DNA of 37,342 nucleotides from Vulcanimicrobiota bacterium (lineage in GTDB: Bacteria; Vulcanimicrobiota; Vulcanimicrobiia; Vulcanimicrobiales; Vulcanimicrobiaceae), in assembly GCA_003164495.1 (NCBI GenBank), contig PLTN01000191.1, positions 63,512-100,853 on the forward strand. Direction: 5' to 3'. Under the pieces are notes generated by a model that did not search any database, was not told the origin of the DNA, and saw nothing but the letters and a program-made list of their open reading frames with translations. The translations under genes and the position numbers were made by a program. Below are positions 23,150-26,436 of this stretch, one piece after another; the first letter of the stretch is position 1; each line of letters starts with the position of its first letter.

Positions 23150-24019
23150 TTAGCCGACCTGCGGCCCGCCGAAGAATTGCATCAGGACCGGTTTGAGCGG
23201 GCGGTCGGGTTTGTAATCGGCGGGCGGTGGCTGTAAGGGAATCCGGCGATCGCCACGCGCGAATGGATCGTCGTGGATCGCGTAGTGGAACGGCCACGGG
23301 ATGTCGTCTTCTTCCACGTGTCCGTCGCCGTACATGTATTCGTAGTGCGTCCAGTAGTAGATGATGTTACCGCGGCGTTCGTAATGCAGTGCGGTGATGA
23401 TGCCGTCGCCCGGATTCATCCCCTCGTGAATGCCGTTGAACTGCATTTGGAAATGCTTGGTCGTGATCGTCGGCGCCGTGTCCATCGCGGCATTGGCTTG
23501 GGCCAGCGTCTGGTGCGATTGCGCGATCGACTGGGCGAACGAACTGTTGAGCTGGTCGAGCTGTTCTTGCGAATAGCCCTGGCGCTTGGGTTCGGGCGGC
23601 GCGGCGGCGGGCCGGATCTCGTGCGGGATCTCGGCCACGCCCTCACCGCGGGACGGAGCGTTTTGACGCGGGGCGTGCACGGTGACGTGCGCGAGCTCGT
23701 GGTGCTGTTCGACCGGCGCGACGACCGGCTGCGGTTCGACGCGCGGCGCGGGCGGCGGCGGCGGTGGCGGTTTCGGCGGCTTGGGCTTCGGCAACACGAC
23801 CGCCACGGGCCGTTCTTGCGGCTGGGCTTTCTCGAAGCGAATGATGTCGGACTTCGGCAGCTGCGGCGATTGCAAGCTCGCGAGCTGCGGCAGCGCCTTC
23901 ACCACGGCACGCGCAAGCCACCCGTACAACGAGCCACCCGCGAGGTGGACCATCAACGAGAGCATGAGCCCGATGAGGAGATAGCGCCGCGTTCGCGCGC
24001 GGCCTCGCGCGCTGATCAT
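23150..24019 (-). CDS. TonB-like membrane-anchored protein with a C-terminal domain shared with the ModA-like protein
   Basis: 289 aa. A single N-terminal TM helix (about residues 13-36, cytoplasmic side RGRARTRR), a Pro/Lys/Glu-rich spacer with a run of seven prolines (about 80-110), a Gln-rich helix (YSQEQLDQLNSSFAQSIAQSHQTLAQAN), and a C-terminal domain of about 95 residues. This layout resembles TonB, but the end does not match the TonB C-terminal fold. Instead it has the stretch YWTHYEYMYGDGHVEEDD followed by IPWPF, DPFARGD, IPLQPPP and KPDRPLKP, almost the same as the C-terminus of the protein at 25324. Probably envelope-spanning, interacting with the same partner. The start has only a weak AGGA before it. 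Confidence 0.65.
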   Translation of the reverse strand: MISARGRARTRRYLLIGLMLSLMVHLAGGSLYGWLARAVVKALPQLASLQSPQLPKSDIIRFEKAQPQERPVAVVLPKPKPPKPPPPPPPAPRVEPQPVVAPVEQHHELAHVTVHAPRQNAPSRGEGVAEIPHEIRPAAAPPEPKRQGYSQEQLDQLNSSFAQSIAQSHQTLAQANAAMDTAPTITTKHFQMQFNGIHEGMNPGDGIITALHYERRGNIIYYWTHYEYMYGDGHVEEDDIPWPFHYAIHDDPFARGDRRIPLQPPPADYKPDRPLKPVLMQFFGGPQVG

Positions 24020-24041
24020 GTCCTGGGGGATAACGTTCCTC

Positions 24042-24056
24042 GGACTACGGTAGTCC
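24042..24056. promoter_or_regulatory. Perfect 15-bp palindrome upstream of the TonB-like gene, possible operator
   Basis: GGACTAC-G-GTAGTCC, perfect arms of 7 bp around one base, centred 30 nt upstream of the ATG at 24019. No convincing promoter is seen next to it, so the regulatory reading is tentative. Confidence 0.3.
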
Positions 24057-24109
24057 CATGAGATTCAACGGTCAGCATAGGGGGCCCGGCTTGGACTCCC
24101 CTGGGTGGC

Positions 24110-24136
24110 CCCCTTCGACTCCGCTCAGGGCAGGCT
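24110..24136. repeat. Dispersed repeat, single copy downstream of rplL
   Basis: CCCCTTCGACTCCGCTCAGG and following GCAGGCT match the minus strand of the copy at 21484-21507. Lies in the gap between the TonB-like gene and the rplL terminator. Confidence 0.75.
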
Positions 24137-24144
24137 TGGCCCAC

Positions 24145-24172
24145 AAAAAAGCACCCCGCGGGCCGGGGTGCT
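24145..24172 (-). terminator. Intrinsic terminator of rplJ-rplL
   Basis: On the minus strand AGCACCCCG, loop, CGGGGTGCT followed by six T residues (24150-24145): a 9-bp GC-rich stem with a U-tract, just after the rplL stop at 24196. Confidence 0.9.
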
Positions 24173-24195
24173 TGTTCTGCTTAGCGGTCGGTCGA

Positions 24196-24570
24196 CTACT
24201 TGATTTCGACCTTGGCGCCGGCTTCTTCGACTTTCTTCTTGATCGATTCGGCTTCGTCTTTGGTAACGCCGGTCTTGATCGCCTTGGGGGCGCTCTCGAC
24301 GAACGACTTCGCTTCGGTCAGACCGAGCGAGGTGACTTCGCGGACGGCCTTGATGACCTTGATCTTCTCGGCGCCGATTTCGCTGAGGATCACGTCGAAT
24401 TCCGTCTGCTCGGCAGCCGGGCCGGCGGCCGCGGCGGCACCCGGGGCTGCCGCAACGGCAACCGGGGCAGCGGCGCTAACGCCGTACTTTTCTTCGAGGG
24501 TCTTCACCAGCTCGGAGAGCTCGAGGACCGTGAGTTTGTCGATTTGATCGATGAGTTCGGCTACTGCCAT
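24196..24570 (-). CDS. rplL: 50S ribosomal protein L7/L12
   Basis: 124 aa. N-terminal dimerisation helices ([26 protein letters not shown]), Ala/Gly/Pro hinge (about 33-54), and the globular C-terminal domain [55 protein letters not shown], which recruits translation GTPases. Four copies or more sit on L10 in the ribosomal stalk. It follows rplJ by 16 nt and is closed by a strong terminator. Confidence 0.98.
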
Positions 24571-24586
24571 GTTGTTCGATTATCTC

Positions 24587-25126
24587 CTAAGCTGCGGATC
24601 CGGCGGCTTCTTTTTGCTCGCGGATCGAATTGAGGACGCGGACGAGACCGCCTTGGTTGCCCGAGAGCACGGTCACCAGACCGTAAAGCGGGCTCTTGAG
24701 CGACCCAACCAGACGGCCAAGAAGCTCGATTTTCGGGGGGAGGGAGGCGAGTTGGGCAACGCCCTTCGCATCGACGATCTGGCCGTCGATGTACGCCGCC
24801 TTGATTTCGACGGGCTTGTTGGCCTCGCCGAAGGTCATCTTGAGCGCTTTCGCGGGTGCGACCGGATCGTCGCCGGCGAAAACGATGGCCGTCGGACCGG
24901 CCAGGTAGGCTTCAAACTTTGCTGCGAGATCGCTACCCGCGGCACGCGAGAACAGGGTGTTCTTCACGACGCCATACGTGCTGGCGCCGTCTTTGCGCAG
25001 CTCGTTGCGGAGTTTCGTGATGTCTCCGACCGTCAGCCCGGCGTAGTTCGTGAAGAACAGGTTCTTCGACGCGCCCAGCTTCTGGCGGAGTTCTTCGATC
25101 GTCGCTTCTTTTTTCGCGGTCGGCAT
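24587..25126 (-). CDS. rplJ: 50S ribosomal protein L10
   Basis: 179 aa. KKEATIEELRQKLGASKNLFFTNYAGLTVGDITKLRNELRKDGASTYGVVKNTLFSRAA is the canonical N-terminal rRNA-binding region; the C-terminal helix binds L7/L12 dimers. The usual neighbours rplK-rplA upstream and rpoBC downstream are absent; it has its own promoter and an attenuator-bearing leader. L10 normally represses its own mRNA through the leader. Confidence 0.98.
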   Translation of the reverse strand: MPTAKKEATIEELRQKLGASKNLFFTNYAGLTVGDITKLRNELRKDGASTYGVVKNTLFSRAAGSDLAAKFEAYLAGPTAIVFAGDDPVAPAKALKMTFGEANKPVEIKAAYIDGQIVDAKGVAQLASLPPKIELLGRLVGSLKSPLYGLVTVLSGNQGGLVRVLNSIREQKEAAGSAA

Positions 25127-25292
25127 GGTGGCTTTCTTGAGAACGAAAAAGCGCCTCCGCCAACCCTGGCGAGGCGCATCGAAAGCCGAATGCCCGCGGG
25201 CATCAGGAGTCTCGTTCGCATCCTCGGTAGGCGCCCAGCGCTCGCACGCTCAGCATTACCCCCTCGCGGGGACCCACGGTCATTGGAGCCAT
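25127..25292 (-). ncRNA. Leader of rplJ-rplL mRNA (L10 leader region) with attenuator hairpin
   Basis: About 165 nt between the predicted start of transcription and the rplJ ATG. It ends in an intrinsic-terminator-like hairpin (25151-25177, 11-12-bp GC stem with one bulge, T5 at 25150-25146) only 20 nt before the ATG, and contains other GC-rich stems (around GCCCGCGGGC, 25192-25201). The placement fits autogenous control by L10/L12, as in many bacteria. A match to the Rfam L10-leader model was not computed. Confidence 0.6.
25146..25177 (-). terminator. Attenuator hairpin before rplJ
   Basis: Minus strand: GCGCCTCGCCA, loop, TGGCGGAGGCGC, then TTTTT. One unpaired base in the stem. Ends 19 nt upstream of the rplJ start codon. 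Confidence 0.75.
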
Positions 25293-25297
25293 CGAGT

Positions 25298-25327
25298 ATC
25301 ATACCCCACGCGCCCCCAGAGGGTCAA
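25298..25327 (-). promoter_or_regulatory. rplJ promoter
   Basis: TTGACC (25327-25322), 18 nt, TATGAT (25303-25298): each box 5 of 6 to the sigma70 consensus. The -35 box contains the TGA stop codon (25326-25324) of the upstream ModA-like gene. Confidence 0.7.
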
Positions 25328-26436
25328 CCCAGCCTCATGTCACCCTGAGCCCCTCGAAGGGCCGCCGCCACCTGGAGGCCGGGGAAGTATTCCAGCAAGA
25401 GCGGCTTGAGCGGGCGGTCGGGTTTGAACCCCTTGGGCGGCGGCTGAAGCGGTATTTGCGAGTCCCCGCGCGCGAACGGATCGTTGCCGGTCGGAAAATA
25501 GAACGGCCACGGGATGTCGTCTTCCTCGACGTGCCCATCCGGATACCGGTAGATGTAGTGCACCCAATACTTGGTCAATGCGCCATCGGGTTCGTAGCTG
25601 TTGTACGTCATCGCACCCTGACCCGGCGCGAGCGCATCGAGCAAGCCGGTGAAGCCGAATTTCGTGAACACGGCTTGCGCCGGATCGGACAACAGAAACG
25701 CTTGCAGGCGCAGGGCGTCGGCCGAGGCGCCGGTACGCGCGACCAGATCGAACGGAATCTGGACGTTGAGGCTGGCCGGAAGCTCGTCCAGCCGTACGCC
25801 CTCCGGAGGCACGGCGGCGACCGCCTTTGCAAACGAGCAGTAGGTGAGAAACGCCGCGTGCGACGACGCAAGCGTCGCGGCGGCGGCCGGCGCGTCGAAG
25901 CCGGGCGCGCTATCGCGCGCCTTCGAGCGCAGATCGATGCTCATGCCGGGCGCGAGGCGAGCGAAGCCTTTGATCACTTGGTCGGCGTAGGCGGTGACGT
26001 ACCGCTCTTGCACCTGTTTGATCAATCCGAGCGCCGGATCGGCCAGAACGTCCATGAACGAACGCCCCGCAGCGAGCGCGTTCGGCGTCAGCAGGCAGAG
26101 CGCGGTTCGCGCCACGACGCGGATATTGCCGTACTTGCCGGTATCGCGCAATTCGAAGGGCGCCGGCAAATCGAGCGCGACGAACAGATCCGGCGTATCG
26201 GGCATGAGCTTCCCCATCAGCGCCGCATCCGAATCGTACGTTGTATCGACAACGATGCCGGTCTGCCGGGTGAATGCCGTGACCGCTTCATCGACCGGAC
26301 CCTTGAGTAAAACGTTCGCATACAGCGTTACGTGGCGCTGCGGCGCAATGGTCTGCGAGGCGGCCGGCGCCCCCGGAAATAAAAACAGCGCTGCCGCCAC
26401 CGTAAGGGCTACGGCGGACGACCAGCGCTGCTTCAT
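25324..26436 (-). CDS. ModA-like periplasmic substrate-binding protein with an added C-terminal domain
   Basis: 370 aa. Signal peptide to about residue 27 (FLFPGAPAASQ), then a binding-protein fold of the molybdate/iron (SBP type II) kind: HVTLYANVLLKGPVDEAVTAFTRQTGIVVDTTYDSDAALMGKL, DTPDLFVALD, and AFLLSDPAQAVFTKFGF. The usual two-Ser oxyanion start is not conserved, so molybdate is doubtful. From about residue 275 comes a domain (YWVHYIYRYPDGHVEEDD, IPWPF, DPFARGD, IPLQPPP, KPDRPLKP) shared with the TonB-like protein at 23150. The last 14 residues (AAALRGAQGDMRLG) are encoded by the dispersed repeat at 25338, i.e. added by the repeat. It lies 13 nt after a Liv-type binding protein, in one operon. 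Confidence 0.72.
   Translation of the reverse strand: MKQRWSSAVALTVAAALFLFPGAPAASQTIAPQRHVTLYANVLLKGPVDEAVTAFTRQTGIVVDTTYDSDAALMGKLMPDTPDLFVALDLPAPFELRDTGKYGNIRVVARTALCLLTPNALAAGRSFMDVLADPALGLIKQVQERYVTAYADQVIKGFARLAPGMSIDLRSKARDSAPGFDAPAAAATLASSHAAFLTYCSFAKAVAAVPPEGVRLDELPASLNVQIPFDLVARTGASADALRLQAFLLSDPAQAVFTKFGFTGLLDALAPGQGAMTYNSYEPDGALTKYWVHYIYRYPDGHVEEDDIPWPFYFPTGNDPFARGDSQIPLQPPPKGFKPDRPLKPLLLEYFPGLQVAAALRGAQGDMRLG
25338..25361. repeat. Dispersed repeat, single copy read as the C-terminal tail of the ModA-like gene
   Basis: TGTCACCCTGAGCCCCTCGA and AGGG: same family as the other copies. It lies wholly inside the end of the minus-strand gene and just upstream of the rplJ -35 box. Confidence 0.75.

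Follow-up and report, generated by a model that had tools for sequence, protein, structure and literature searches.

The locus analyzed here raises the question of why two proteins with different N-terminal halves, encoded on either side of rplJ-rplL, should end in the same domain, and what that domain may do. In the window, by which we mean the whole stretch of 37,342 nucleotides that was analyzed, the two open reading frames had been predicted to flank rplJ-rplL on a single strand. Their ends and their common strand were borne out, but that strand is minus, the plus-strand translation containing stops. The features of the locus and the evidence for each are as follows.

23150..24019, minus strand: TonB-like protein of 289 amino acids, with an N-terminal TM anchor, Pro-rich spacer, helix and tail domain (sequence and homologue family)
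23906..23980, minus strand: its TM anchor with the SxxxH signature, Ser21...His25 in LSLMVHLAGG (sequence, motif survey and the SHLS motif of TonB/TolA, PMC12215075)
23576..23866, minus strand: its Pro-rich periplasmic spacer, residues ~52-148 (sequence and homologue spacer statistics)
23156..23410, minus strand: its tail domain core, residues ~204-288 (AlphaFold2 and alignments)
24196..24570, minus strand: rplL, ribosomal protein L7/L12, the next gene upstream of that for the TonB-like protein (PF00542/PF16320)
24587..25126, minus strand: rplJ, ribosomal protein L10 (PF00466)
25101..25306, minus strand: rplJ start and leader, 91% conserved in a sister species (identity ends just short of the fusion gene)
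25324..26436, minus strand: fusion of a solute-binding protein (SBP) to the tail, 370 amino acids (ORF, BLASTP and PF13531)
26353..26436, minus strand: likely Sec signal peptide of the fusion, residues 1-28 (sequence, judged by eye)
25648..26328, minus strand: SBP_bac_11 domain (ModA/WtpA superfamily) of the fusion, residues 37-263 (PF13531, 8.3e-17)
25366..25620, minus strand: tail domain core of the fusion, residues ~273-357 (BLASTP and AlphaFold2)

The usual gene after rplJ-rplL is rpoBC; downstream of the pair in the window (23150-25126) are the TonB-like gene and an alpha/beta hydrolase gene, not rpoBC. An Rfam search of the rplJ region gave no match. Positions 14838-36632 hold several aromatic-compound genes and solute-binding proteins (UbiD, NMT1-type and Peripla_BP_6 proteins); ORFs resembling a homogentisate dioxygenase and a xanthine dehydrogenase were also recognized there by eye.

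Comparison of the TonB-like protein with the fusion by BLASTP gave 130 bits (E = 9e-40, 46% over 160 residues) in the C-terminal part. All the motifs that the original prediction had placed in both ends were found in the same order (NPGDG/APGQG, YWxHYxY, DGHVEEDDIPWPF, DPFARGD, IPLQPPP, KPDRPLKP and GxQV), and the N-terminal halves are unrelated, as it had also stated, one being a TM segment plus Pro-rich sequence and the other an SBP_bac_11 protein (PF13531, 8e-17, residues 37-263). The common tail, put at ~90 residues, is real, with its size refined to the last ~85 residues. The helix region that precedes the tail in the TonB-like protein is missing from the fusion, where the solute-binding fold joins the tail with almost no linker, and this near-absence of a linker independently marks the start of the domain near the PGxG motif. 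Over 65 aligned codons the two tails have 71% nucleotide identity, with a dN of 0.24 and a dS of 1.08 (dN/dS 0.22), which argues that their likeness is maintained by protein-level selection and is no recent DNA copy. The two tail copies of the window genome, one in the TonB-like protein and one in the fusion, are an older duplication under purifying selection.

The tail had at first been recognized as no named family, in agreement with which no Pfam or NCBIfam model, PDB sequence or PDB fold matched it at E<=1e-3; the best PDB values (E 0.41 by sequence and 0.26 by fold with Foldseek) are meaningless, and likewise the best match in a viral fold library (E 0.013 with an rmsd of 13). AlphaFold models of both tails have the compact, confident core expected of a genuine domain (pLDDT 89-97 in each), which rules out unstructured low-complexity sequence. 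In the AlphaFold2 model of the TonB-like protein, built on an alignment of 38 sequences, residues 205-272 are beta-rich (pLDDT about 89-97; strands predicted at 205-216, 219-229, 235-239 and 244-247) and are preceded by a long helix (151-179) and then a poorly predicted stretch, the predicted order in the C-terminal region being helix, then strand meander. The model of the full fusion has a good tail, like that of the TonB-like protein, and a poor solute-binding half, because the alignment contained only tails. The tail is a new compact domain, uncatalogued and restricted to one family.

One explanation of this domain is that it descends from the TonB C-terminal domain by strong divergence and has retained binding to TonB boxes, since it occupies the same position in the protein, behind the same anchor and the same kind of spacer. 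We consider this very improbable, as no homology between the tail and TonB_C was detected: PF03544 (TonB_C) had no match at E<=1 in 38 members of the tail family, and hhalign gave a probability of 0.4% for the tail against TonB_C of the same phylum, the family's own, as compared with 100% for a control in which two halves of the TonB_C set were aligned with each other. The predicted helix and strand meander, with no PDB fold match at 1e-3, also speak against it. The TolA C-terminal domain was not among the Pfam families matched by the 38 members at E<=1. Because the defining C-terminal domain (TonB_C) was looked for and not found, the tail protein was not filed as TonB.

The phylum Eremiobacterota is little studied, includes phototrophs and has a cultivated member. 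With the TonB-like tail region as query, matches were found in 32 of 60 relatives, all within the window's own family. A survey of 149 genomes with a 38-row tail profile identified the tail in 92 of the 99 genomes of this family (Candidatus Eremiobacterota; several of the seven without a match are incomplete) and in none of the 50 genomes from the rest of the phylum. A four-sequence tail alignment searched against named genomes returned mainly Candidatus Eremiobacterota records, and the whole fusion protein found nothing in the named-genome contigs. One record, L105 (Rhodospirillales bacterium BOG_genome_mining.22), has its tail in the same position as G016:C118 of the Eremiobacterota family and is probably a mislabelled MAG. 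A remote second TM-anchored group (L067, L070 and L168-L177) gives weak matches to the tail profile at its protein ends (about 19-35 bits), mostly adjoins apt-like and relA/spoT-like genes and may be a sister family of the tail protein; its neighborhoods held housekeeping genes and no functional clue. The tail genes themselves lie in housekeeping neighborhoods (rlmD/gatCAB/mutS2/dnaE2, metG and rplJL), away from exbBD or receptors, and these neighborhoods gave no functional clue apart from a solute-binding protein.

Metal binding through the acidic HVEEDD motif, as originally proposed, is contradicted by an alignment of 101 tails, in which the motif occurs in only three and its positions vary freely; conserved acidic or His ligands are absent from these tails, and a metal-binding domain was rejected. 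Trp242 and Pro265 are invariant in the alignment, and Gly233, Pro243 and Asp251 nearly so. Cysteines are found in pairs: Cys221 and Cys245 occur together in 58 tails and Cys208 and Cys226 in 22, never singly in either case, and two further C-terminal pairs occur in 12 tails each, while nine tails, including both from the window, have no cysteine. On the tree the pairs fall in about five clades, so that independent gains are few, each gain being a pair. From the strand limits, residues 208/226 and 221/245 are predicted to face each other across hairpins, and the strict pairing points to interchangeable disulfides in an oxidizing periplasm. With a TM anchor or signal peptide and paired cysteines, the carriers of the tail look extracytoplasmic, consistent with the envelope side to which they had been assigned.

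The architecture of the family was surveyed in 99 full-score proteins outside the window, with the frame traced back to the preceding stop; two were truncated, leaving 97. All 97 have a hydrophobic segment near the N-terminus that forms a single TM anchor, which carries SxxxH in 81 proteins, as in the window protein, AxxxH in nine and SxxxN in seven (these counts include three SxxxH anchors and one SxxxN anchor below the hydrophobicity threshold). Behind the anchor come a Pro-rich spacer (~65-155 residues, with a Pro content of mostly 12-26%), a helix that shows the FxxTIA pattern and finally the tail. Many N-terminal architectures, which the original prediction had named as support for a new domain, were not found: every intact full-score protein from relatives has the TonB-like anchor, and the SBP fusion was seen once. 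In cryo-EM structures, Ser16/His20 of TonB and Ser18/His22 of TolA contact ExbB/TolQ, and the anchor His of both proteins is stated to be essential (PMC12215075). Genomes of the family encode ExbB, several TonB_C proteins and numerous TBDT plugs, and usually carry two genes for ExbD.

The tail protein likely works like TonB, and we lean towards the reading that it is a family-specific energy transducer of the TonB/TolA type with a C-terminal recognition domain, tied to solute-binding proteins. With ExbBD or TolQR as the motor acting on the anchor, the tail would span the periplasm and grip an envelope partner other than the TonB box of ordinary TonB_C proteins. Against this reading stand the seven homologues in which Asn replaces the anchor His, the housekeeping neighborhoods of the tail genes, the many genomes in which the solute-binding protein and the tail are unlinked, the distant relation of the fused SBP to the operonic ones and the restriction of the fusion to one MAG.

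The tie to solute-binding proteins comes from gene order as well as from the fusion. In seven genomes of the first set, the tail gene has an orphan SBP_bac_11 gene as its immediate upstream neighbor; a wider set extends this to 16 genomes from eight genera, always adjacent and on the same strand, with junctions of 2 to 41 bases where these were read (the exact tail start being uncertain in L038 and L044). In L044, L110 and L112 the TM-coding part of the tail gene begins before or at the first ATG/GTG/TTG, near the SBP stop codon, and a CTG start or translational coupling is possible. The operonic SBP of L062 scored 134.7 bits against PF13531 (gathering cut-off 25), and operonic SBPs scored 38.9 and 63.3 bits against WtpA (TIGR03730), below the equivalog cut-off of 242.75; no permease gene was seen beside them on inspection. 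An apparent 543-residue ORF in G100 that overlaps the SBP was rejected as a second fusion, the coordinates placing it in another reading frame. Since most of the family has only a few SBP_bac_11 genes per genome, chance is an unlikely source of both the adjacency and the fusion to one and the same tail, but the two amount to only about two events. Recurring in eight other genera, this operon suggests a permanent place for solute-binding proteins in the system.

The linkage could also mean that the tail binds the SBP fold itself, such that the TonB-like protein tethers the SBP to the inner membrane and the fusion welds the two together (Rosetta-stone logic). Conservation of the two-gene unit in 16 genomes and the existence of a separate fusion, independent of the operon, are consistent with tethering, and there is precedent in E. 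coli TonB, reported in work cited in PMC3813593 to bind the SBPs FhuD and BtuF. Nevertheless, we consider it unlikely that tethering explains the tail, since the tail is near-universal in the family and its linkage to an SBP is less widespread. Elsewhere in the family the same SBP (50-54% identity) is found away from any tail gene (it lies elsewhere in G003, G010, G012, G013 and G014); in G011 the SBP occupies its usual locus, yet the only tail contains a stop and is on another contig. Furthermore, the fused SBP comes from another subfamily.

The fusion was seen only in the window genome, a single MAG (84% complete, 7.2% contaminated). It scored 62.2 bits against PF13531 (gathering cut-off 25) and 14.5 bits against ModA (TIGR01256), below the equivalog cut-off of 62.5. 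Its SBP was not matched by tblastn at 1e-3 to the operonic WtpA-like SBPs and lacks their AGSL/AASL motif; it is a different, more distant subfamily. The fusion tail shares a clade, supported as a whole at 100/100, with the tail of the window TonB-like protein and those of G001 and two G029 proteins. On both flanks of the fusion site the window is collinear with the sister species G001 (78-80% DNA identity). There the interval from the rplJ leader to the next SBP gene contains no fusion but a small GIY-YIG-like ORF (L033:11500-11960, by eye). Inverted copies of a CATCCCGAGCGTAGTCGAGGGA-type repeat stand on either side of this ORF, which with them looks like a small mobile cassette.

A repeat-flanked ORF at the same site marks it as a hot spot, and this, with the restriction of the fusion to one genome and the lack of the AGSL/AASL motif, would fit a recombination accident in one species without selected function, in which case the operon would be mere neighborhood and only the TonB-like family meaningful. 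We find this doubtful, given that the frame is open for 370 codons, has an apparent signal peptide and shows coding-like GC3 in both halves, and that the two window tails differ with the dN/dS of 0.22 given above.

If the tail protein is a transducer, as we favor, the window species would have joined a duplicated tail to an exported solute-binding protein, and the fused binding protein may dock to the transducer's own partner or to the transducer's complex. We infer one common partner for the TonB-like protein and the fusion; that this partner is, or includes, a solute-binding protein is speculative. In its boldest form, to which we give little credence, the reading adds the tail protein to TonB and TolA as a third class of proton-motive-force transducer, specific to one Eremiobacterota family. 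Its new domain would act on periplasmic solute-binding proteins (capturing, docking or releasing them) instead of TonB boxes or Pal, with the SBP-tail fusion as a soluble branch.

The Gram-negative envelope has two textbook force transducers, TonB and TolA, and a near-universal, family-restricted protein that combines their anchor with an unrelated end domain suggests another output for the ExbBD-type motor. The tail alignment is ready for adding the domain to family libraries, and the swapped disulfides and SBP linkage are direct handles for testing the tail protein. The protein resembles TonB in its single N-terminal TM segment with SxxxH, Pro-rich periplasmic spacer and folded C-terminal domain and in the presence of ExbB/ExbD in the same genomes; it differs in that neither Pfam nor hhalign nor the fold search identified its tail as TonB_C, and its genes are orphan, apart from exbBD, and present besides several ordinary TonB_C proteins. 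With TolA it shares a distal folded domain and the TolQ/TolR-engaging type of SxxxH TM anchor, but the Pfam scan found no TolA C-terminal domain in it, its spacer is Pro-rich and not a long helix, and its gene was not seen beside tolQR or pal. Among solute-binding proteins, the fusion matches SBP_bac_11 (PF13531) over residues 37-263 and the operonic SBPs resemble WtpA below the cut-off, whereas scores against ModA and WtpA are far below the equivalog cut-offs, no adjoining permease gene was seen and the fusion bears the extra tail domain. Finally, docking of E. coli TonB to FhuD and BtuF is a precedent for a force transducer that touches periplasmic binding proteins; there the contact is with a TonB_C protein, whereas here the binding protein is fused or co-operonic and the C-terminal domain is another one.
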